DNA from: Scenedesmus sp. ARA3
Lineage: Eukaryota; Chlorophyta; Chlorophyceae; Sphaeropleales; Scenedesmaceae
Assembly: GCA_004335835.1 (NCBI GenBank)
Contig: RWJK01001729.1
Location: 1 to 64,000 of the forward strand
Reading direction: 5' to 3'
Length of the DNA stretch: 64,000 nt
Shown piece after piece: positions 10,772 to 52,737 of this stretch (positions within the stretch are counted from its first letter, which is position 1; each line of letters begins with the position of its first letter). Below the pieces are notes generated by a model, which searched no databases, was not told the origin of the DNA, and worked only from the letters and a program-made list of their open reading frames with translations. The position numbers and the translations under genes were made by a program.

Positions 10772-11504
10772 CGGCTACGCCAAACGCAGTTGCACCTCCC
10801 TCTGCAGCACAAGGCGGCGATAGCGCAGCAGCGGCAGCAGGTACTGGCAGTGACGTAGCAGCCTGCTGTGACCCAAGCCAGCTAGCACACCCAGGAGACG
10901 GCGGAGCAGCAGCGCGCTGCTACATGTACAGGCTGCTGCATGATGCTGCGGAGCTGCTGATGCAGCGTTGGGGCAGTGGCTGCCTGGGCCCTCCCAGCAT
11001 GACTGCTGCAATGGTGCTGGTGGGCTTGCCGGCTGGTGGCCTGCTGCCGCAGCCTGGCCAAGCCACCTCAACAGACGCCAAGCATGTGCAGGTGGGGTGC
11101 TGCTGTGTGTTGCTTTGATGCGGGTGGTGTCTGCACACTGCAGGCAGATGCAGCATAGTTTCAAGGTGAAGGCTTGTGTGCGCAGCGAGGGTTGGCTGTT
11201 TGGCTGCCACATCTGCACAGGATGCAGGCAAGGCTCAATGGTGCAGCTGTATGGGTGGACTGTGCGCTGATGACGCCGGCTGTTCGTACGTCAGATGCTC
11301 CTGACAACCGCTGTCGCACTGCTGCTGCTGCTGCTGCTTCTGCTGGTTGTACATACTTCCACTGTTGCAGGACCTGCTGCACAGCATGCACAGCATTGAG
11401 GTGCCCATCAAGACCATCCAGGGCAGCCTGTACGTGCGCATCAGCGCACACGTCTATAACACACTGGCAGAGTATGAGCAGCTGACGAATGCCGTGCAGC
11501 AGAT

Positions 11505-15300: not shown

Positions 15301-18300
15301 TGGGTTGCCTGCCTTTGAGTTTTGTGGCGGCGCGCAAGTGTTGCGCCAAGCAGGTGATTGCCTTCTAACGTCAAGGAATTGGCCTGTTGAGTTAATTTTC
15401 ATGATTTTTGATTCTTGAACACGTGCGGCGCGCAAGTGCCGTGCCAAGAAGATGGCCTTCGTGGTGGAGCTGCAGAAGACCCTCAGGGAGCTCATGCGCA
15501 AGAACGAGGAGTACAGGCTGCAGGTGCGTAGTGCGTTGTGTATGTCGAGTGGCTGTAAGCGTCTTGCTGCGCAGTGCACATAGCGTGCTTGCTGGTGTGG
15601 GGAAGAGTGCAGTGAGCTACTCGTTTCGGGCTTTTCCCCCACAAAGCAGGACACGCGTTGTTCACTGCGCTTTTCACCTTGACCAAGCCTGCCAACTTTG
15701 ATATCAGGTGCAACCAGCAGGAGTACAGGCTGCAGCTGCTGCATCTGTAGTTGGGTAAGCGTTGTGCTGTTGGCTTTGCTGCTGTGTTGAAGCATTTGTT
15801 GCGTTGTACGGTGTTTTTTTTCTACGAAACACACCTTGGGACATGGTGTTCTGATGCGACATGGGCCTGCGCGCGACCTAGAAGCCACTGACATTGCTGC
15901 TGCTGCTGCTGCTGCTGCTCTGCAGATCATCACCTGGCACAAAATGTTCAGCCGCGAGGCGCGGCTGCTCGTGGCAATGAAGCGTGTCACAAGGCACAAG
16001 ATGCTGACGCTGCCGCTGCCCCTGCTGCTGCTGCTGCTTATGTATTTTACAGGTCATCACCTGGCACAAGATGTTCAGCCGCGAAGTGCGCCTGCGCGAG
16101 GCAATGAAGCGCATCATTGCCGTCATGTGGCAGAGCGGCGTGGCGCCTGCTGCCTCTGGCTACACAGCCAACGACGTCATCATCGGCCTCGAGTCAGGTA
16201 AGTTGACCTGCCACTTTTGTTATATGATATCGACTGTGTTTGCCTGTCAACTTAAAAGATATGCTGGGTACATCTTAATCCTGTCATGGGGTGAAAGGGT
16301 TGCCATGTGCACCAGGCAGTTAGGCAGGTTGTTCTGCATAAGGCGATAAAGCGCATCATCGTCATGTGGCAGAGTGGCGAGGAGCTTGCTGCCTCCGGCT
16401 ACACCGCAAAGCAACGTTATCATCGGCCTGGAGTCCGCAGCGTGCACCATGTTGTGTTGAGTCTGTTCATGTGTTGAATGAGCCTGCAGTTGGCAACGCT
16501 CTGGTTTTTGCTGTTGATCAGCGTCAAGATGTGTGCTGGAGATATCTTGCGGTGTACTTCTTTGAAAGGCAGCAATTTAGTCTGGCGGGTGGACTGCTGC
16601 TGGTTGGGCAAGGTGGGTGGCTGATGGCACTGAGCTGATGCATCTACTATTAAGTAGGCTAGGAGTTCATTGCAGGAGCTCACACATGACATGTTGGTTT
16701 CATCCTTTAATGTGTTACGACACGTCACGTGTGGGTTCCTGTGCTGATGCAGTGCAGCTGTTACACCGTTGCATCTGTTCCTGTTGCGGCAGGCTGCTGC
16801 TCACATCACACTGCTTTTGGTGCGTGCCCTACAAGCCGTGCATGCGATGCGCTGCACCCCAGTTGCAACTGCTTCTTGGTTGCCCCTGGCCGTATGTTTT
16901 ACAGACGATCCTGCGGGCGACCAGGAGGGATTTGCAAGCTGCATGCAAGCAGCAGTTTTATGATCGGCATGCGCGACCCCCGTAACCTTGGCATGTGCAG
17001 GATGTGGGTGTTTGGCGGTGGTTGTGCATCTTTCGGTGGTGGTGGTGCGTCTTCAAAGCATGCTGTTTTGCCAGCGGCCTTTCTCAGGGGTGATCTGGAA
17101 CTTGCAGGTCGATATAGATGTTGAACTTGCAAGATGTGAAAGGGTGCCGGCCCTTAAATTGCTGCACACTGTACGTGCTGAGTCCTAGTCATGCGTCCGC
17201 AGTTCATGTTGTGGCACGCTGCTGCTTACATAACGCCGCTTGGATGTGCGTTGGGTTATGCTGGTGATATGCTGTACGCGGGTTGCTCCTGCTTCTTGGT
17301 CGCCTGCAGCTTTGATGTGACGAATCTGCGAGCGATCAGGAGGGGGAGGTGCAACTTGCATGCAAGCAGCACTTTGTGGGTCAGCTCACTTGTGCCCACA
17401 GCCTTTCTAATTGTTTTGCAGGGTATGGCCGTCTGGTGGTGCTTGTGCATCTATAAAGGGATTATGTCTTTGCCAATGGGCTTAGAGGTGGACTTGCAGG
17501 TCATTTAGGGTGAGGTGCTTGCGAGTTGTCGCAATAACACTCATCTGCTACTGCTGGCTGCTAATGTTACACTCCCTCCTTTCTACAGGCACTCTGGATG
17601 TGAACAGCCTGGTGCGGGCCCTGGCCAACCTCAACGCCCCGCCAGCCCACTCCGGCCTCTCCATCAACACAGCAGCAGCAGCAGCGGAGCTGGCAGGGCA
17701 AGCTGCCGCCCACACCCCTTCCCACGCACAGCATGCACAGCACGCCGCCAACCGCGGTAGCCCCACGCACGGCCTGGCAGCACCAGCAAACCTGGTGCTC
17801 GGCAGCCCCACTGCTGCTGCTGCTGCTGCTGCTATGGCTAGCCATATGGCAGGCGGTGCTGCTGCAGGACTGGGTGTGCCAGCTACACCTAATGCTGCTG
17901 CTGCTGCCAGCCAGCTGCTGGCACTGCAGCAGCAGCAGCAGGGTGAGGGTATGGGTGAGCTGTGTGGCAGCATGGGAGGTGACAGGTCAGCTGCAGATGT
18001 AGTTCCTGGTATGGGTGGTGCTGCGGGCGGTACAGGCGGTACAACAGCAGCAGCAGCAGCAGGCAGCCCTCTGTCTGGCGAGCATGCTGAGGGGACACTG
18101 CCAATGGCGCTGCTGTCTGCACAGTACAGCCACATCAGCAATAACTCGCCTGCAGGCATGCAGGCCAGTTTCACCACTGCTCAGGGCTCTGCAGTGCAGA
18201 TGCAGCTGGCGATGAGCAAGCTAGCGGCTGCTGCTGCTGCTGCTGGCGGCGGTGATGCTGCTGCTGCTGCTGCTGCTGGAGGGTATGGGGCAATGCCTGG

Positions 18301-23395: not shown

Positions 23396-23398
<3 letters not shown>

Positions 23399-25769: not shown

Positions 25770-28700
25770 TCACATGATGCTGCACTTCTCCTCCTGCTGC
25801 TGCGCTCGCCGCCTGCCAGTGCCGTGTGTTCCACAGGACGCTGAACCCCGCCGGGGCTGCTGCTGCTGCCGCTGCTGCTGCATATGCTGCTGGTGCTGCG
25901 GCGCACCGCCCGCTGCTGCCATCGCCGGTTGCTGGTACCCCTGCTGTGCTGAAAACTGCGCTGCCTGCTGCTGCAGGTTTGATGCGGCTCTGTCAACTCC
26001 ACTAGCTATCCGACGCCCCATCTGTCTGACACTAGCTGCTAGCGAGTCGGCCTGCTGCTGCAGCCCTAGGCCAGGCGCAGCCGCCGCTTGCTGCTGCTGC
26101 TGGGCACTGCCGCTGCCTTGTTGCTGCTGCTGCTGTTGCTGCTGCTGGCGCTGCGCCTGTATCCTCGCAGCCTCCTCTTCCTCTTGCAGCTGCAGCTGCA
26201 GCGCCAAAGCAAAGTCTGCATCCTCATGGCTGTCATGTCCCGCTGCTGCTGCTGCATGTCCCAGCAACTCCTGATGCTGTTGCTGCTGGTGCTGCAGGGC
26301 CTGCTCGTAGCCTCCTCCTCCTCCAGATTCTGCCGCCAGGCTTGCTGCTATCGCTGCATCAAGGTCAGTCATGGCTGCTGGTACCTCGCCTGCTGCGCCT
26401 GCTGCTGCCACCTGGCTATAGCTGAGGGTGTCGGGATCCCTATGCGGCACAAAGGGGCTGAATGCACCTGCAGCGGCAGAGCAGCAGAGCAGCAGGAGCA
26501 CAACATGTTATGGATAGTTGGCATCAGCATTGTGAGCATAGATTGCTGCTGCAACCTGGCTGTAACTGAGGGTGTCGGGATCCCTGTGCAGCACAAAACG
26601 GCTGAAAGCACCTGCAGCAGCAAAGCAGCATCAGCAGCACGAAGTCAGGAAAGGGTGACATCAGCAGAGCGAGCCTGCATGTTGAATGAGGTGCTGCTGC
26701 TGCTGCTGCTGCTGCTCAGATACACTGTAAGCTCGCTGATGAGTGACGCCACCCGTAAAGATTTATTGGATATTGATGGGTGAGTGCCTTACCCGTGCAG
26801 AAGGTGGTGTCACCATTGACGCTGTCCAGGCGCTCCCACACGATGCCTCTCTCACACACTTCGTTACTCCCCATCTCACCAAATCACTTCCTCTCTCACA
26901 CTGTCTCTCACACTGTCTCTCACCTGTGCAGAAGGTGGTGTCACCATTGACGCTGTCCAGGCGCTCTCACTCTCTCTCAAACAGGTTCACAAGACCTCTC
27001 ACCCTCGTCCATAAGCAGACCCACATGAATATGCCCGTATTTCCGCCGCACCTGTGCAGAAGGTGGTGTCGCCGTTGACGCTGTCCAGGCGCTCCCACAC
27101 AATGTCCGGCTCGCGCTCGTAGCCAGCATCAGTCACCAGCAGGAACACGGCGCCCTCAAAGGCAAACAGCGTGTTGAAGTGGTTGTTCCTGCAGGCATGA
27201 AAAAGTAATCCAGTTTGTTGAAGAATTATATCCGTAAACAGCATGAACACAGCACCATGAACGGCGAACAGCGCGTAGAAGCGGTTGTTCCTGCAGGCAT
27301 CGACCTGAACTGACCTGAACCTGAACTTCGTCTTGTTTGAGGCTTTATAGCGCAACAGCAGGAGGCACGGCGCCCTCAACACCAAACAGTGCGACTCGGA
27401 TGTTGCTGCATGCTAAACCAATGATTGAACATTACACGTCCAAGGTTTTGTGCAGCAGCAGGACCAGCTGTAAGAGGATGTGCCATGATTGCCAGTCGTC
27501 TCTGAGAAAACACCAGTATAACTCGAACAACACTGCCAGCAGGTGCCCCTCTATTCTGGCTAGCCCGTAAGGCATAAGGCAATTCGAACGTCTGATACAC
27601 CCTCAATACAAACCAACGCTGATGTTGCTCACCTGAAAAACACAGCCAGCTGATGCTCCTTCAGGCTGCTCGCCAAGGTGGCCAGCCCGTACGGTGTGAG
27701 CTGGCTGCAGTGCGCCTCCATGAAGCCCCGCCACAACCCCAACACCGCTCACTTAAAGAAGACCGCCAGCTGGAGCTCCTTCAAACCGCTTGTCGCGGTA
27801 GCTAGCCTGTACGGTGCTCTCGGACACTGCATGATGCATAGTCGATTTGAAATTTAAAGCCGCTCACCTGAAAAGGACTGCCAGCTGGTGCTCCTTTAAA
27901 CTGCTTGCCAGCGTAGCCAGGCCATACGGCGTGAGCTGGCTGCAGTGCGACTCCATGAAACCCCGCACCACATGCGCATCCACCAGCTGCTGCTGCTGCT
28001 TTTGGTCGCCAGCTGCCGCACTCGCCCCAACAGCCCCTGCAGGTGTTTCTGTCCCAGCCGGCTTGCTGCTGCCGCTGTTGTTGCCGCTGCCAACCCCTAG
28101 CCGGGAGGGCCCTGCTCCTTCAAAAGCAAGCTTCCGTGTCATGCTAGTGCTGCGGGTGGGGCTGTCACCCAGCTCTATTCTGCTGGGTGCCACATCGCAG
28201 CAGACATGCAGCAGCATCTCCTCCACAAGCTCCTCGATAACGACATCCTCAGCACTGCCAGCTGCAGCATCAGCTGCCACATCAGCTGCTGCTGCTGCTG
28301 CTGATGATGATGAGGCATGCACGCCATTGCTAGTGCTGCTGCTGCTTGTGGAGATTTGTGGCAGCTGCGGCAGGGCTTGATCGAGCCCTGCTGCTGCAAC
28401 TTGCTGCTGCTGCTGCTGCTGCTCCTGCAGGTCCATCAGCGGCTCCACGGCCCCTTCAGCAACAGGCGGCATGTGCTGCTGCTGCTGCTGCTGCTCAAGA
28501 GCTTGCTGCTGCTGCTCCAAGGCATGCTGCTGCTGCTGCTGCTGCTGCTCCAGGGCGTGCTGGTGTGCCTGTGAGAATGAGCCGTGGCTGATGCTCAGGT
28601 TGCGCAGCGGGCCTGCTGACAGCGCCTCCACTTCTGCCTCGTCTAGGCCCAGCAGCAGCACCTCCATCAACTCGTTGTAGGACCTGCAGATTTCTCATCA

Positions 28701-30777
28701 ATGTTTCATGGTTAATTAATTAGTAACTGTGATGGTGAACGTGGACATATTGCAGCGGCCTGCTGACAGCGCCTCCACTTCTGATGTGTCTAGGCCCAGC
28801 AGCAGCACCTCCATCAACTCGTTGTAGGACCTGCACACGTGTAATCAATGTTTCATTGCTTAGTTGAAGAGTCACAGTGACTTTTGACAAGTTGCAGCGG
28901 GCCTGCTGACAGCGCCTCCACTTCTGACTCGTCCAGGCCCAGCAGCAGCACCTCCATCATTTCGTTGTAGGACCTGCACATGTGTAATCAATGTTTCATT
29001 GCTTAGTTGAAGAGTCATAGTGACTATTAACAAGTTGCAGCAGGCCTGCTGACAGCGCTTCCACTTCTGATTTGTCTAGGCCACGCAGCAGCAACTCCAT
29101 CAGCTCATTGTAGACCTGAACAATCAGTGGGCAGGTGAAGTTATAGCATTGAAGTATGTTTGAGTGAATTGAAGAGCAGCAGTAGCAGCACCTCCATCAG
29201 GGACCTGACGCGGCCGTGGTGCGGAGTTTAGGGGTCCATGCGCGCACTTTACTACACATTACACACCTCTGAACCAACCTGGTGCCAAAAGACCGGTGCA
29301 GTTTGAGTGTCCTGCGAGTCCACTAGCCAGCCGTGCAGCAGCGGGATGTGCGGCCGGTCAAAACATCATGCTCAGTCAAACATCAGTCAAACACCGGTCA
29401 ACGCTCTCACCTGGTGCCGAAGACTGCTGCTGTTTGAGCGTCCTGCGGGTCCACCAGCCAGCCGTGCAGCAGCGGGATGCCCAGCAGGTCGAAGACAGCT
29501 ACCTCTGGTGTGGGCTCAAACGCGTGCGCATTGTGGAACTTCACATTCACGTCAATGCCTGCGGCAGTTGAATGCTAGTTGTCGTAAGCAAGTCTTTGAT
29601 GCGCAACAGTAGCAACTGCGCTGCGCCGCACCTGTTGTGAGCATTCAAAGCACCGGGAAGGCGTCGCTGACGTTGCGCGCATGGTCTGCGTGTGGCCCAC
29701 GCGATACGCATCATGCGGAAGAAGCTCGACAGAAGCAACTGCGCTGCACCGCACATGTTGCGAGCTGCTGCAGCACTGGGAAAACATCGCTGACATTGCG
29801 CACATAGTCTGCTGCGTGTGGTGTGCAACACTTGCACCATACAAGCATACACAATACTAACAGACACGCTGCCATGCACCTGTGGTCAGTTTCTGCAGCA
29901 CTGGGAAAACATCGTTGACATTGCGCGCGTAGTCGGCTGCATGTGGCGCACTGCCCTCGAAGGCCTTGCTGCGCTCCAGCAGCAGGTCCACGATGGACGT
30001 GATGAGGTCCGACTGTTACATGACAGAATGTAACAAGGTTCAAAAGGTTAGGTGACAGCTGGAATGATGCAGGTCAAGGATGGTGGCAGGGAGCAGCAGG
30101 GTGCAGCAATGACGCTGCCAACACAGTCTTGGCACTGCATGCTGCACAACACATTCCCAATGCTTTCTTTTACCGATAACGGCTTGCATGGAGTGCTGAT
30201 GACAAATTCTGTCTGTGCGCGCAAAAAGTGTTGCAACAAACAATGTAATATATAATGTGTCTTTGCGGCTGGTGCTGCAGCCTCTGACTTCTGCAGCACA
30301 GGTGCTGCGCCTGCTGCTGTGCTGGCACAGCTGCTTGCCTGGGTGATGTCCCGCACGCCTGCAGGAAGCTTCAACTCGTTGCGCAGAGACAGTACGTTGG
30401 CGATTGCCAGCAGCGGGCATGGCCCATTCTTGTTCTGCATGCATATCTTGACCTGCCTGCGAGGTTTGAAGTTGAGAGCATTTGGGTGCACGTGTCACAC
30501 GTCTTGCAGAGCGATGCATGCGGAGGGCATGCGGAGCTTGCAGGAGGGTGGGTGGAGGCGTGTGGCTGTACAGTTGATGAAAAGGCAAGCTGCTGTTGCA
30601 ATGTTGAGTGTTGCGCGTATGCTGCATGCATCTGTGCAATGATAGCTGCATGCAGCTGCTGCTGAGGCCTGCAGCCAGTGAGCACAGGCAACTGCTTGAT
30701 GCCTGCGCGCTCTTCTGCTGCATGCCTCACCTTCCAAAGAAGTCGATCCTTTTCACCACGTAACTGCTGTCCCCCAT
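25770..30777 (-). CDS. MINDY: MINDY-1/2-type (FAM63) Lys48-specific deubiquitinase
   Basis: Seven exons close in phase: 30777-30731, 30456-30339, 30012-29880, 29558-29411, 28683-27868, 27188-27052 and 26467-25770, giving 698 aa. The MINDY catalytic core is plain. QNKNGPCPLLAIANVL holds Gln23 and the nucleophile Cys29 with the same six-residue spacing as human MINDY-1 Gln131/Cys137. GIDVNVKFHNAHAFEPTPE follows, then FDLLGIPLLHGWLVDPQ with catalytic His131. SYNELMEVLLLGL, SQLTPYGLATL and FRNNHFNTLFAFEGAVFLLV complete the fold, ending VWERLDSVNGDTTFC. By family knowledge it trims Lys48-linked ubiquitin chains in the cytosol. A Gln/Ala/Ser-rich insertion of over 200 residues splits the core in exon 5. 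The C-terminus has UIM-like helices (ADFALALQLQLQEEEEAA) and ends CSIM, a CaaX-type prenylation box. Exon 2 appears to use a GC donor. Confidence 0.93.
26535..26615 (-). repeat. Echo of MINDY exon 7, 5' edge
   Basis: Minus strand: after CTGCTGCAG the sequence repeats the exon 7 head, GGTGCTTTCAGCCGTTTTGT, then GGGATCCCGACACCCTCAGT. The real exon has GGTGCATTCAGCCCCTTTGT at 26467. Its acceptor is intact. It lies about 130 bp upstream in transcription. Confidence 0.8.
26798..26975 (-). repeat. Two echoes of MINDY exon 6, 3' edge
   Basis: GTGCAGAAGGTGGTGTCACC then ATTGACGCTGTCCAGGCGCT (+ strand) occurs at about 26798-26840 and 26927-26970. It matches the real exon 6 end at 27053-27092. Both copies lie downstream and keep an intact CACAG|GT-type donor edge. 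Confidence 0.8.
27220..27420 (-). repeat. Two echoes of MINDY exon 6, 5' edge
   Basis: The copy at about 27225-27293 encodes NNRFYALFAVHGAVFMLFTD, against NNHFNTLFAFEGAVFLLVTD in the real exon, and keeps CCTGCAG|GAACAACC. A more decayed copy lies at about 27355-27410 (GCACGGCGCCCTCAACACCA). Both are upstream of exon 6. Confidence 0.8.
27490..27812 (-). repeat. Three echoes of MINDY exon 5, 3' edge
   Basis: Copies lie at about 27751-27812, 27633-27731 and 27501-27575. The middle one encodes FMEAHCSQLTPYGLATLASS with one change from the real exon end and keeps TTTCAG|GTGAGC. The outer two are shorter or frame-broken. All lie downstream of the real edge at 27868. Confidence 0.85.
28750..29207 (-). 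repeat. Three to four echoes of MINDY exon 5, 5' edge
   Basis: Copies of the exon 5 head (SYNELMEVLLLGLDE...EALSAG) lie at about 28754-28832, 28894-28972 and 29037-29115, with a stub near 29175-29205, at a period of about 140 bp. The first two keep an acceptor (GTGCAG|GTCCTACAACGA). The intervening intron sequence AATCAATGTTTCAT is repeated too. Thus whole acceptor-plus-exon-head units were amplified in tandem upstream of the real exon. Confidence 0.88.
29285..29366 (-). repeat. Echo of MINDY exon 4, 3' edge (catalytic His region)
   Basis: The + strand GTGTCCTGCGAGTCCACTAG, CAGCCGTGCAGCAGCGGGAT and GCGGCCGGTC repeat the exon 4 segment that encodes the HGWLVDPQ motif, about 125 bp downstream of it. 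Substitutions destroy the motif, so this copy could not encode the active-site histidine in context. Confidence 0.8.
29638..29830 (-). repeat. Two echoes of MINDY exon 3, 3' edge
   Basis: Copies of the segment encoding DYARNVNDVFPVLQKLTTG lie at about 29752-29822 (DYVRNVSDVFPVLQQLATC) and about 29638-29700 (HARNVSDAFPVL-like). Both are downstream of the real exon edge at 29880 and retain G|GTGC-like donor sequence. Confidence 0.8.
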
Positions 30778-34570: not shown

Positions 34571-37051
34571 AGCAGCAGCACAGGTAGTGGTGGCAGTGCA
34601 GTAGATCTGTTGGCGCAGGTGGCAGCAGCAGCAGGCACCAGCACCTACGGCCATCTGCGACTGTGCTGCTGCCTGGTGCAGATGCTGCTGCATGCAGTGG
34701 CCCTTCAGCAGCAGCAGCAGCAGCAGCAGGGGTGCAGCACAGTCTGGCAGCCGCGCTGTCCTGGCTTGGTGCAGCTGCTGCTGGCGATGCCAGCAGAAGC
34801 AACACAGCAGCTGGAACAGCCAGAGCTACAGCAGGCACTGCTGGCAGCACTACACCCCAGCAATGGGTTTACTGGTGCTGCTGCCACATCGCTGCCCCAG
34901 CAGCGGGGTTTTGGGGTGAGGGTTGCGGCTGCCAACAACCCCTGGTCTTGGCTGCGGCAGCAGCTTTCAAGTGAGCTGCAGCCGCACCTGGCTGCTGCTG
35001 CTGCCAGAGGCCTTGTCGCTGCTAGCAACAAACTGGTACAGCAAAGTGACGATGATGACGATGTTGCTAGTGTTATAACAGCAGCAGCGGCGGCTGACCC
35101 AGCACCAGGCAGTGCAGCTGTGACCAGAACCAAAGTGGTGCTGCCGCAGCAGCGGCAAGAGGCGCTGCTGTTGGCTGAGCTGTCGCGGGTGCTGCTGCTG
35201 TATGAGGGGCTGTGGCCGGAGCTGACTGTCCGGAGGCTGCTGCTGGATGCAGTACACCACAGGTGGGCACATATTGCTTTGAAAAGTGTCGCTTTGTTAC
35301 GTGATGCTGTTGCTGGCTGAGCTGTCGCGGGTGCTGCTGCTGTATGAGGGGCTGTGGCTGGAGCTTACTGTCAGGAGGCTGCTGCTGGATGCAGTGCACC
35401 ACAGGTGGGCACATACTGCTCTAATTGTGTTACTTTGTTACATGATGCTGTCGCTGGCTGAGCTGTTGCGGGTGCTGCTGCTGTATGAGACGCTGTGGCC
35501 AGAGCTGACTGTCAGGAGGCTGCTGCTGGATGCTGTACACCACAGGTGAGTGCTGCATAGTTGTAACAGTGTTACTTTGTCATTTGGTGTTATTGCTGGC
35601 TGATGAGATGCTGCTGTTGTATGAGGTGCTGAGGGCGGAGCTGACTGTCAGGCAACTGGTGCTGGATGCAGTGCACCACAGGTAACCGCAGAGTGGATGC
35701 GACAATGTTAGTTTGTTACATGGCAGTGGTCTTTGACATGACAATCTTTTTCACTTGCCTGCGCAATGTGTATGCAACGTATGTCTGCACTTTCGCAGCT
35801 GACTTACACATCATTGCACATGCACGCGATGCCTTGTACTGCCCTGCCTGCAGGCCTAACATTAAACTGCCTGCAGCATATTCGCATAATCTACGTGATG
35901 CCATACGCGCGTGTGCTGCCTGCTGCTGCCCTGCCTGCAGGTCCCAGCAGCCGCTGGTGGCGCAGCTGCTGAAGGGCATGTATCATACCAGTCACCTTCC
36001 CTGCAGCAATCACAACTGACCTGCCGCGTGTGTGCTGCCTGCTGCCGCTCTGCCTGCAGGTCGCAGCAGCCGCTGGTGGTGCAGCTGCTCAAGGGCATGC
36101 AGCGCGCCTGCAGCACAACAGCCGCTGTGACAATGCTGGCAGCATCAGTGGCACCAGCAGCTGCAGCACCAGCACTGGCAGCAGCAGAAATCCCTGCACA
36201 GCACACCACAGCAGCAGCAGCAGCTGGTCAAGCAGAGGACGGTTTGGTGCCGGAGCAGCAGTGCATTGCAGTGCCCCTGCCCCTGGACCAGCTGCTGCGG
36301 CTGCTGCTGCCAGTGCCAGCCAGCTACCAGTTCTTGGCTGCATCTGAATTGGCTCATGCCACCATTGCTGGTCGTACGACAGAGCTGAATCAGCAGCAGC
36401 AGCAGCAGCAGCAGGCGCTTGAGATGACAGAGGCACAGCAGCTGTCAGCAGTGGCGCTGCTGCAGCAGCTGCTTGTTGCAGGGCTGCTGCAGCAGCAGTA
36501 TGCGCTGCTGCTGCTGTGCCTGCAGCCTTTGCAGCTCTTGTGGCAGCAGCAGCAGCAGGGCAGGTACAGCCACAGCCAACTGCGGCTGATCCTGCAGCTG
36601 ACAGACAGCCTTCTGGGAGTCCAAGCCACCACCAAAACTGCAGGTGCTACATCAGCAGCTGACAGTCGTAGTCGCAATCACAGTGGCAGCAGCTCCAGCT
36701 GGGACAAGCCTTGGGCAGCATTTCATGCTGCATGTGATTGCCCACTCTCCTGCACTGCACAGACAGCAGCTGCCCTTGCTACTCTGCAACAAGCACCAGC
36801 GGCCACAGCTGCTAACTATGCTGGGCAGCAGCAGCAGCAGCAGCAGCAGCAGCCAGCAGCTGCAGTGCAGTGGCTGCTGCTGGGACTGTGCCAGATTCAG
36901 CAGCAGCTGCAGCAAGCTGCTTTGCTGCACCACCGACCAGACTACAAGGGCAGCTGCCACGCAGCAGCACTGCTAGAAGCACTTGTTTCCTGGCTAGCAG
37001 GCAGTGAGGCAGCAGGCCTGCTAGGAAACGGGGAGAAGCACCAGCATCATC

Positions 37052-47790: not shown

Positions 47791-50700
47791 ATGAAGCTGC
47801 ATTTCAAAGGCCTTCCAAGGCTGCACGTTCGCGCGCGTGCCCCAACTGCCTTGACAGGGGCCTTGCACCACCCGCACAGCAGCAGAAGGAGCATCAGCTG
47901 CCCAGCAGCGAAATCCAGTGGATCTGAGGGCAGCAGCAAGCAGCAGCCGGAAGCAAAAGGCAGTCCGACAGCAGCTGCAGCGGGTGGATCGCAGGCAGCA
48001 AAACCTAGTGCAAGGGAGCATGCAGCAGCAGCGCCAGCAGCTGCAGCTGCAGCTGCCCAGGCAGCGGGCGGGGCTGGCATGATGAGCATGGATGGGCGAC
48101 TGCTGTTTGCAAGTAAGCAATATGTGCTGTCTGTGAGCTGCTATGCAAGCAACATGGCCCAAGCTGGAAAGCAACGTTGGTGCAAGCAAATGCACACTCG
48201 CACGCCTTTCTGCGATGCTGTGCATGTGGGCCATCAAACAGCTGCAGCCCAGACCTTCACAACAACCACCTCGCGTTGCCTTTCTGTGTCTTCATGTGCA
48301 CTCAGCAGTGTGCCTGGTGACACGAGTGTGCAGCCCTCACTCATTCAGCACCACAGAACAGCTGCTGAAACCCTAGTCACAACCCTAGTTCACCTGCAGC
48401 TGTTCAAGTGCAGACCTGTGACGGACGACTTGCAGACTACATCGCGCAAGTTCTCAAAATGCAAGCTTGTTTGCGTCTTGTCCAATCAACTGAGCATTAA
48501 CTGAGTGCACTGGCTGCTGTTGCCAGGGCTGTCTTGGTGAATGCATGGTGGCCTGCTTTGTGGTCATCGACACGGAGCCTCACAAGCAGATTAGCTGCTG
48601 ATCTGCCCTGCCGTGTGCAGCATGCTGCTGCTTATTCATGTTCCTGATTGCCTGCTGCTGCTGCTGCTGCTGCGCAGTCCCGCCAGTCACGCTGGCCACC
48701 CCCACAGATGAGGTGCTGGAGTGCCCCACCATGCGCCACATCCTGGGGCCGCCTCGCCACACCACAATTGAAGACAACATCGGCAAAGTGTGGGAGGGCA
48801 GGTGAAGCCGCACTGCTGGCCAGCTGCAGGGCTGTTGTGTAATTTGTGCGGTTGTTGGTTGTAGTAGCAGTGCAGGGCATGCCAGGCGTTCTGCAAGCTC
48901 TCTGCAGCAATGCCGCAATGCTGGTAGCTGCTTGCAAAAATGCGCTGAGATGCTTCATAGTGGCAGCTGACATGGCAGCAGCAGCAGCAGGAGCACATAC
49001 TTAGCTGCCGCAGTACACCCTGTGCAAAGTTGACTAGTTGGCGCCGCTGCGCGCGTAATGCTCCTCTCGTCAACTGGCCCTGCTGCCGCTGCGCTGCATC
49101 TGCGCGGCCATGCCCTCCCACCCAGCTACCTACAACACACCTACAACTGCGCCCAGATGCTTGCCATATGACGACCAAGCAGCGCTCGCCCTGTGGAACT
49201 CGGCTCTCCACAACGTTCCCAGCATTCCAACAACTGACGCACTGTTGTTGTCGTGCCGCTGCACACTGCTGCTGCCACGCCTTCACTCCCGCACGGCACA
49301 GGTACGTGTCAGATGACGACCGTGCAGCGCTCAACCTCGTTGAGTTCGGCTCCTACAGCATCCCTGGCGACCACAGCGGCAGCGAATCCAGCAGCAGCAG
49401 CAGCAGCAGCACGCTGCGCAACAGGACGCTCAACAGCGGCGTGTTTGCTGGCCCTGCAAACACCTTTGCCAGTGTGGCAAGCATGGATGCGGTGCAGCAG
49501 GGGGATGGCACAAAGGTGATGCCGCTGCCGCCGTATGCCCTGCGTGCCGGGCCTCGGGAAGAGGTCTACTTTGACCCCAAGACAGTCACAGCAGCAATCA
49601 TATCGACAGGTGAGGAAAATGATTGGAGGGTTGGCTTTGACCCATGGCAGTTGGTATAGCTGTAGTGCAAAGGGCGGGGCCACAGGAAGAGACATACTAT
49701 GACCCCAAGACAGTGACTGCAGCCATCATCAGCACAGGTATGGGTATGGCTTTACCGGTTGAAGGCTGCGTTAGGCATAGCAGTTGGTCCAGCGGAGTTG
49801 CATGATGCGGCGCTTGCTGATTGCCGGGAAGAGCGGCAGTGCATGCATGTGCAGCAGCAGCAGCAGCAGCAGCAGGGTGCCTATTGCCAGGCAGGGATGC
49901 AGCTGATAATCACGCCTTGCCATCTTCAAATGCAGGCGGCATCTGCCCGGGCATGAATGACATCATCCAGGCCCTGTGCAAGCGGCTAGCGGACTACGGC
50001 GTGCACGAGGAAAGCGTGCTGGGCATTCGGTGAGCCGACAGATACTATGCCTGCATTCTGCTGCGTTACTATGTGTTTGACTGTGTTTGACTGCATTTGT
50101 CAGGCAGCACACGCGCCTGGCTGACTATGGAGGCCACGAGGAGAGCGTGCTCGGCATATGGTGAGGCGCAAGATACTATGCTTGCGTTTCTGCTGCATTT
50201 GACTGTGTTTGACCGTGTTTGACTGCAATTTGTCAGGCAGCACACGCACCTGGCGGACTATGGTGTGCACGAGGAGAGGGTGCTGGGCACATGGTGATGG
50301 CCTGCAGACATGATGCATATTGGCTGCCTTTAACAGTCAACATACTCTCCGAGATGTTGAATGAGCAAGGCAGCTGCCCTTCACAATCTTGTACAAAGGA
50401 CAGCTGCACAGCACGCTTTCCACTGGCCTCGCTGCACTGTCTTCGTGCGGTGGTAGCAACTTGAACGCGTACTCTGCTACTGCTGCCCCTTCCCAATCAC
50501 CCTTCGCACCAAATGTCGAACCATGCCCCACTGCTTGTAACTCCACTCTGAGCCTTGACCGATTTAAACCTTCGAACCCTACACCTCATTGCAGCTACGG
50601 CGTGCACGGCTTCACAGCACACGACTACAAGCCCATCGTCTTAACACCAGACAAGATCGAATGCATCCACCACACAGGCGGCACAATGCTGGGCACCAGC

Positions 50701-52044: not shown

Positions 52045-52737
52045 TCTGCACGCAGGCGCATCAACATGCTGTTTGTGATTGGCGGCCAGGGCGGCAACCA
52101 GCTGGGGGCACAGCTGGCTGAGGGCTGCCAGCGGCGGCGCATCCCCTGCTGCATTGTGGGCGTGCCGAAGAGCATCGACAATGATGTGATGCTCATGGAT
52201 AAGACCTTTGGCTTTGACACGGTGGTGCAGGTAGGATCCGCATGTTGAATATGAGTTGGCTTACATTTGGTGGAGCGGCTGAGGGCTTGCATAGTTCTGG
52301 TTGCATGTTATGTGGCCATCAGCAGAGCATCCTCTGCTGCATTGTGGGTCTAAAGAAGAGCATTGACAATGACGTGATGCTCATGGACAAGACCTTTGGC
52401 TTCGACACAGTGGTGCAGGTGTGGTGCATGTTATGTGACATGTTATGTGACATGTTATGCTATGTTGCGCTGTGTCATGTTGAGAATAATGGTGTGATGC
52501 TCCAGGACACAACCCCTAGCTTTGAGCAGATCAATCTGCATGTGATATCCAACTTGTCGACACAGATGCCTCAAGAAGCACAAGCAGTATGCGGAAAAAG
52601 GAACGGCCCACAGTGACACTTGTTAGCAAGCGCTTCTCGTGACAGCTCTGGCAGTGTTTGAGCTGTTGCCACAGTTTCATCAAGGCAGCAAAAGCTGGTT
52701 TGGGTGCAGCTACCAACATTGATGTGCTGCTGCTGCC

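Follow-up and report, generated by a model that had tools for sequence, protein, structure and literature searches.

In the green alga Scenedesmus sp. ARA3, many introns hold duplicates of the edges of the exons that they adjoin. The copies, which we call echoes, are local and direct, are scarce outside genes, keep splice sites that score close to the authentic ones, carry few insertions or deletions in their coding part and are associated with longer introns. The reading that we favor, with a probability of about one half, is that introns grow stepwise by exon-edge modules, that exon definition would keep the mRNA normal, and that the exon parts of the modules would exchange sequence with the exon.

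Echoes inside the introns of a MINDY gene

The window, that is, the whole 64-kb stretch of DNA that was analyzed, contains a MINDY deubiquitinase gene on the minus strand.

25770..30777, minus strand: MINDY deubiquitinase gene, 7 exons, 698 aa, GC donor in intron 2
30777-30731, 30456-30339 (GC donor), 30012-29880 and 29558-29411, minus strand: MINDY exons 1-4, rebuilt by hand
28683-27868, 27188-27052 and 26467-25770, minus strand: MINDY exons 5-7, rebuilt by hand

The exons translate without stops, and a family scan found a complete MINDY domain in the product (E 1.5e-85). The closest named relatives of the protein are from Raphidocelis and Chromochloris (the latter by its source label). Alignment to six relatives runs through all six junctions; the sole junction-side gap is at junction 1, where one distant relative has a single extra residue. 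Because the protein aligns with its relatives across the junctions, the exon edges taken as real are right. The donor of intron 2, at 30339, reads GCAAGC. CAG/CTG tracts are dense between window positions 23397 and 34570, where the predicted proteins contain poly-Q, poly-A and poly-S stretches.

When every exon of this gene was compared with every intron, 20 same-strand matches were found, 14 of which are edge copies: two of the 3' edge of exon 3, one of the 3' edge of exon 4, four and two of the 5' and 3' edges of exon 5, two each of the 5' and 3' edges of exon 6, and one of the 5' edge of exon 7. All 14 lie within the adjoining intron and on the predicted side, copies of 3' edges downstream and copies of 5' edges upstream. 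The initial annotation had reported at least eleven copies in this arrangement, and both its count and its directions hold.

29768..29821, minus strand: echo 1 of the exon 3 3' edge, 91% over 54 bp
29649..29700, minus strand: echo 2 of the exon 3 3' edge, 76%
29279..29362, minus strand: echo of the exon 4 3' edge, 85% over 84 bp, weak donor GTTGGT
28752..28830, minus strand: echo 1 of the exon 5 5' edge, 94%, acceptor retained
28894..28973, minus strand: echo 2 of the exon 5 5' edge, 95%, acceptor retained
29037..29113, minus strand: echo 3 of the exon 5 5' edge, 87%, outermost full copy, flank similar to the spacers at about chance level
29180..29199, minus strand: fourth copy of the exon 5 5' edge, a 20-bp remnant
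27761..27814, minus strand: echo 1 of the exon 5 3' edge, 78%, differences 6 synonymous and 9 non-synonymous
27633..27731, minus strand: echo 2 of the exon 5 3' edge, 84% over 99 bp, differences 14 synonymous and 2 non-synonymous
27230..27290, minus strand: echo 1 of the exon 6 5' edge, 79%
27353..27389, minus strand: echo 2 of the exon 6 5' edge, 84%
26924..26970, minus strand: echo 1 of the exon 6 3' edge, 94%, donor GTGAGA
26795..26845, minus strand: echo 2 of the exon 6 3' edge, 94%, donor GTAAGG, intron homology not found
26544..26611, minus strand: echo of the exon 7 5' edge, 88%

The remaining six same-strand matches are weak (15-25 bp), as are two opposite-strand exon-intron matches of 22 and 48 bp, and introns 1 and 2 were free of edge echoes in this comparison. 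One hundred dinucleotide-shuffled sets of the MINDY introns gave 0.07 matches per set, with a maximum of 1. Comparison of the MINDY region with itself yielded 15 pairs in direct orientation and two, of about 35 bp, in inverted orientation.

The second echo of the exon 5 3' edge (27633-27731) encodes AVFFR, as do all six relatives, where the real exon encodes AVLFR. At this position, the echo looks nearer to the ancestral edge than the real exon does.

Echoes in a sample of the genome

We examined local repeats in a sample of 239 kb, made up of the window and 20 further stretches (175 kb) and covering about 0.27% of the genome, whose assembly comprises 87.3 Mb in 1567 contigs. Gene models outside MINDY came from a small gene finder trained on the sample without RNA, and seven were checked by family scans. 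The names MINDY, phosphofructokinase, bZIP, WD40, proteasome, short-chain dehydrogenase and cyclophilin were given by family scans; "U2AF-like" denotes a partial protein with a sub-threshold match to the U2AF large-subunit model. On MINDY itself, the finder missed the GC donor but otherwise recovered all edges up to and including the 5' edge of exon 7; it fragmented exon 7 and ran past the gene into downstream sequence. It also called four MINDY echoes as exons, a warning to users of gene finders; 17 predicted exons that were echoes were removed by rule before counting. The counted set holds 48 genes with at least two exons, 237 introns and 474 junctions; single-exon genes, pairs below 40 bits and pairs more than 700 bp apart were left out. 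Pairs that share one array are not independent, and figures with one pair per junction were also computed.

Echoes recur beyond MINDY, at 48 of the 474 junctions, in 36 of the 237 introns and in 18 of the 48 multi-exon genes; 30 junctions have one echo, 12 have two, five have three and one has four. The 152 kb of sampled multi-exon genes contain 128 local direct pairs and 0 inverted pairs. These comprise 41 copies of a 3' edge lying downstream, 38 copies of a 5' edge lying upstream, 1 copy on the wrong side, 4 copies of exon middles, 26 exon-exon pairs, 14 intron-only pairs and 4 mixed pairs. Placed at random, these pairs would yield 9.7 and 10.7 in the two edge classes.

The initial annotation had spoken of a strict geometry without copies of exon middles. 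Nearly all copies are placed as described, and the statement on exon middles is nearly right, with 4 such pairs against 79 correctly placed edge pairs and 1 wrong-side pair; the geometry is a consequence of contiguity. Of the two copies of a piece that spans a junction, one remains joined to the body of the exon, and the extra one must therefore lie in the intron. The direction rule is no separate discovery and needs no mechanism of its own. The informative part is the rarity of wrong-side and exon-interior copies, as selection would ensure.

Across the 239 kb, local direct repeats show a peak of spacing at 100-160 bp plus its multiples, and there are no inverted pairs of at least 45 bp nearer than 520 bp; laxer masking revealed inverted pairs, two at separations of 520-560 bp and eight at more than 1 kb. 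Chance or low-complexity similarity in a CAG-rich genome is suggested by the abundance of CAG/CTG tracts in the MINDY region. It is refuted by the shuffle control, by the lack of inverted matches in genes, by the adjacency of echo and edge, and by aligned exon parts that reach 122 bp, and we give it practically no weight.

Besides those of MINDY, the following echoes were recorded.

35164..35683, plus strand: second array of the window, 142-bp period, exon 3' edge of another predicted gene with three echoes
15425..15523, plus strand: echo of the 3' edge of a bZIP exon, protein identity 32 of 33 residues, differences 9 synonymous and 1 non-synonymous
52323..52418, plus strand: echo of a phosphofructokinase exon 3' edge, 84% at the protein level
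contig C820, about 10811-11161 and neighboring exons (locus L016), minus strand: echoes of exon 2 of the U2AF-like gene, a 189-bp exon covered by two echoes

In the U2AF-like gene, the first 78 bp of exon 2 are echoed upstream and the last 113 bp downstream, with a 2-bp overlap; the arrangement looks like an older exon copy into whose middle a second one, with stubs of intron, was inserted. As a test outside the sample, three kinase loci were chosen by eye because their domain matches overlapped; two of them are echo arrays, and the third (L028) has no repeat.

Grouped into arrays, the repeats comprise 53 at junctions, 17 within introns only, 4 within exons only, 8 straddling a gene end and 2 wholly outside genes, the search space being 81 kb of intron and 84 kb outside genes (some of it N); arrays without an exon anchor, whether intron-only or outside genes, decay on both copies and may be under-detected. 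A minisatellite process blind to gene structure was rejected on the excess of 53 junction and 17 intron arrays over the 2 wholly and 8 partly outside genes. The finding of just 2 arrays wholly outside genes also speaks against plain neutral tandem duplication, in which steps of about 125 bp would arise anywhere, the harmless ones would survive, and those anchored in an exon would stay recognizable longest, the exon being conserved. We consider this explanation unlikely, and much of the evidence set out below bears on it.

Steps, spacers and flanks

The nearest echo lies 83-163 bp from its junction at 40 of the 48 junctions and 188-462 bp away at 8 of the 48 (median 129 bp), and the aligned exon part of an echo comprises 15-122 bp of coding sequence. 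For MINDY, steps near 125-145 bp had been described; the repeated spacing was found again, but the steps there are 102-148 bp or sums of such steps. Inner copies recur with regular periods of 122-123 bp in L010, 127 bp in L016 and 142-147 bp in MINDY. The spacer between the real junction and the echo is at least 40 bp at all 48 junctions, whereas random placement puts 41% below 40 bp; spacer and edge lengths come from alignments, which may end too early. The absence of spacers below 40 bp is a further point against neutral duplication, and it fits the need of a real site for about 40 bp of intron context of its own. By eye, acceptor-side spacers resemble real intron ends, and donor-side spacers begin like real introns.

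A mobile-element origin of the spacers, as in introner-like mobile introns, gained no support: when the 48 spacers were compared with the 239 kb, 31 matches at other loci were obtained, and no common family was seen among 25 of these 31 (20-76 bp long, several plainly CTG-rich). Three unrelated genes that have 3' echoes show, by eye, runs of a TTTGACTG-like motif where the intron begins on the donor side (window 29363-29410, L026 about 415-480 and window about 50030-50109).

In the longer arrays, the inner spacers are alike, but beside the outermost edge copy the flanking sequence is similar only at or close to chance level. This similarity is 0.53-0.59 in L016 and 0.53-0.65 at MINDY exon 5, compared with 0.51-0.57 for shuffles, and 0.64-0.67 in L010, compared with 0.54-0.55 for shuffles; the corresponding exon parts remain about 85-96% similar. 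This, too, is unexpected under neutral duplication. Over 73 pairs, the intron flanks are alike in 29, unalike (score below zero) in 32 and intermediate in 12. Simulated neutral decay placed flanks below zero in 3% of pairs at 10% divergence per lineage, 6% at 12.5%, 14% at 15% and 45% at 20%. Echo divergence in the 32 unalike-intron pairs is about 8% at second codon positions. Against the observed 32 of 73, neutral decay would explain only the oldest pairs. Local alignment of the 32 unalike pairs gave p <0.02 in 2 and p <0.15 in 10; because of these 10, a trace of common origin may remain in the unalike introns, and this slight leftover similarity favors neutral duplication. At 23 of the 48 outermost echoes, homology stops no more than 10 bp from the junction; in a simulation in which the echo drifts freely (3' edges only, no base-specific mutation rates, indel rate taken from the intron parts of long alignments), the share is 18%.

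In the exon 5 array of MINDY, the real edge and the first echo are 94% alike in the exon part and 66% in the spacer, and the first two echoes are 91% alike in the exon part and 94% in the spacer. These differing identities indicate that exon parts and spacers differ in history, and they suggest exchange limited to the exon part, which would produce such a pattern.

Splice sites of the echoes

After 11 matches that stop short of the junction were left out, GT or AG was found to be kept in 70 of the 73 pairs whose alignment reaches it. Counted by junction, the dinucleotide is kept by the nearest echo at 47 of 48 and by the outermost echo at 46 of 48, compared with 82% in the neutral simulation. 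Donors of echoes score 6.07, their real sites 6.74 and other intronic GT -0.55; the corresponding acceptor scores are 6.71, 7.01 and 0.47 for other intronic AG, and in 31 of the 73 echoes the score equals or exceeds that of the matching real site. The earlier view that the spliceosome faces near-equal competing sites is supported by these scores. The same holds for the 32 unalike-intron pairs, in which the signal bases are only 58% (donor) and 51% (acceptor) identical: donor signals score 1.64 in the echo, 1.69 in the real site and -1.64 in other intronic GT, and acceptor signals 2.35, 3.09 and -1.99 (other intronic AG), respectively.

Since echo and real scores are nearly equal, signal strength alone cannot direct the choice of site, but position can: measured over the exon, no site is closer than the real one at any echo junction, whereas over the intron the echoes are closer. 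We infer that this alga depends on exon-wise pairing of splice sites.

Constraint and drift in the echoes

The initial annotation held that the splice sites survive while the coding parts decay. The first half stands; the second does not stand as worded, as the exon parts are poor in indels and some echoes differ almost only synonymously. Gap openings in exon parts number 2.4 per kb, about 5-fold fewer than the 12-12.9 per kb of the simulation. Mismatch at codon positions 1, 2 and 3 is 0.080, 0.060 and 0.197, compared with simulated values of 0.096, 0.095 and 0.140. Both the indel deficit and the third-position excess, the latter over a simulation that lacks base-specific mutability, argue against neutral drift. 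Over the 73 pairs, 255 differences are synonymous and 256 non-synonymous, compared with 100 and 411 expected from random change of the exon; part of the synonymous excess is expected because the exon itself changes synonymously. The extreme ratios of synonymous to non-synonymous differences are 11:0 in the U2AF-like gene, 9:1 in bZIP and 14:2 in the second echo of the MINDY exon 5 3' edge. Changes unique to the echo are mildly codon-biased, with 77 at the third position and 44 and 48 at the other two. Codon optimality was rejected as a marker of the functional copy, as the constrained pairs show no clear direction.

Other observations are as neutral duplication predicts. In 32 long alignments, mismatch is 9.6% in the exon part and 18.6% in the intron part, near the 1:2 ratio predicted for drift of the echo alone. 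Many echoes, particularly the outer copies, have non-synonymous changes and appear free of constraint (1:11 in L024, for example), and the third copy of L027, read by eye, contains a stop. On these comparisons, the echo set is mixed and only partly neutral. Local tandem duplication across junctions, as first proposed, is thus upheld as far as direct copies around junctions are concerned, but not in its simple tandem form, against which the outermost flanks and the indel deficit speak. Judged from the sequence, plain neutral tandem duplication would be insufficient in view of the indels, the kept splice sites, the lack of spacers below 40 bp and the points at which homology ends.

The echoes could instead be functional alternative splice sites or exon parts, selected for the isoforms that they allow. 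Echo sites nearly as strong as the real ones even where their bases differ, together with coding constraint on some echoes, would be expected of such elements. However, the step to the nearest echo modulo 3 is zero at only 11 of the 48 junctions, one at 20 and two at 17, so that extension to the echo site would usually break the frame; on this distribution we reject in-frame isoforms as a general reading, and its lack of bias to zero agrees with neutral duplication. By eye, the three most constrained echoes have no matching donor or acceptor at their internal end through which they could be joined to the body of the exon, and many other echoes appear unconstrained. We regard selection for isoforms as very unlikely. 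A split-exon isoform of the U2AF-like gene was likewise rejected, no donor being seen by eye at the end of the upstream echo.

Intron length and co-occurrence of echoes

Regression of intron length on echo number gave 302 bp plus 125 bp per echo (r 0.45, p 2e-13), which supports a link between echoes and intron growth. The median intron is 272 bp without an echo and 350, 491, 656 and 797 bp with one, two, three and four echoes, respectively; the mean in the sample is 341 bp. Introns with both 3' and 5' echoes number 12, compared with 6.2 expected within genes (p 0.0004). Exons flanked on both sides by echoes number 8, compared with 5.3 expected, which is not significant (p 0.06).

The co-occurrence of 3' and 5' echoes would be accounted for if the sample contained diverged haplotypes or the traces of a past hybrid, an echo being the edge and intron of the other allele, interleaved by the assembler or exchanged unequally; the differences would then date from a time when both copies still worked. 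Such an origin would explain jointly the synonymous and indel-poor differences, the intact but differing splice sites and the unrelated introns, as well as the division of the 189-bp exon 2 of the U2AF-like gene between a 78-bp upstream and a 113-bp downstream echo. Against it, all seven genes searched (MINDY, U2AF-like, phosphofructokinase, bZIP, WD40 protein, proteasome subunit and short-chain dehydrogenase) are single-locus in the 87-Mb assembly when the best candidates are scored, paralogues of at most 63% identity aside. Regular arrays with alike spacers and decaying outer copies are not allele-like, and the 239 kb contain 5 runs of N, none of them inside an array by eye, although one array in L020 lies about 110 bp from such a run. 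We consider a haplotype origin improbable, to about the same degree as neutral duplication.

A proposed stepwise growth of introns by exon-edge modules

In the favored model of stepwise growth, introns would lengthen in steps of about 125 bp, each adding a copy of the adjoining exon edge just inside the intron. Each added copy would carry a usable splice site and a spacer of at least 40 bp resembling an authentic intron end. Once two copies are present, arrays could expand and contract through exchange between them. The mRNA would stay normal through exon definition: the spliceosome would pair, across each exon, the two closest sites, which would always include the real one. The exon parts of echoes would be held similar to the exon by gene conversion or by contraction of the array, so that frameshifted echoes or those with bad sites would be exposed to selection, and spacers would drift freely. 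The primary copying event may have been a short templated insertion primed at the splice site; if so, homology would often end at the splice site for that reason.

Several observations stand against this model. Exchange should also homogenize the signal bases, which are only 58% and 51% identical in the 32 unalike pairs, and the leftover intron similarity of these pairs fits old tandem copies. The near-synonymous-only echoes (11:0, 9:1 and 14:2) would require very effective selection, and the co-occurrence of 3' and 5' echoes is unexplained by independent events. A second reading, which we put forward tentatively and hold to be rather doubtful, is a splicing-linked growth process confined to transcribed introns, which would copy the exon edge, as far as the splice site, to a place 40 bp or more inside the intron; genes would thus gather rows of working splice sites silenced by exon definition alone, and the copies would evolve in concert with the exon as a protected reserve of coding edges.

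Intron lengthening and the choice among equal splice sites are hard to study outside engineered duplicates. The echoes provide a natural experiment at about one in ten sampled junctions, in which near-identical sites in similar exon context differ in position. Consistent use of the real site would support exon-wise pairing in vivo in a green alga; otherwise, the echoes would supply isoforms on a large scale. From the counts, introns may grow in unit steps of about 125 bp.

Comparison with known systems

In the potato RdRp gene, a duplication crosses an intron-exon boundary, and splicing treats the duplicate as a new intron (Ma, Lan and Niu 2016, PMC4974935). The potato duplicate holds the branch site, polypyrimidine tract, acceptor and exon start; its copies differ at ten bases, and a further 83-bp duplication lies inside the first intron. 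The portion of the account cited here concerns a single gene and a single event that added exon sequence, whereas the alga has echoes at 48 of 474 junctions, often in several copies, and the MINDY protein that matches its relatives needs none of its echoes.

The Rogers model and its Drosophila cases, in the part drawn on here (PMC2891723), likewise involve local direct duplication of exon sequence by splice signals. There, however, an exon interior bearing AGGT is doubled, and a new intron of the size of the duplication results; in the alga, exon edges are copied into existing introns. Intron gain of the Rogers type was rejected for MINDY, whose echoes are located within introns and whose protein aligns with its relatives across the junctions.

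Where flanking introns are large, sites nearest across the exon are reported to be preferred, with a switch between intron-wise and exon-wise pairing (PMC9225289). The portion of that study cited covers annotated alternative sites in a database, whereas the competing sites of the alga are duplicates of the same edge.

Long introns and a similar GC content (57%) are also reported for Tetradesmus obliquus, a green alga belonging to the same order: its mean intron is 462 bp, compared with 230-302 bp in three other Sphaeropleales and 270 bp in Chlamydomonas (PMC5966456). The part of that account used here describes no exon-edge copies; echoes are one possible cause of these long introns, although this is a guess.

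Among the open-access literature matches listed, we recognized no description of widespread exon-edge copies in existing introns. We therefore rate junction-crossing duplication as already known, and its frequent, array-forming version within existing introns as apparently new.
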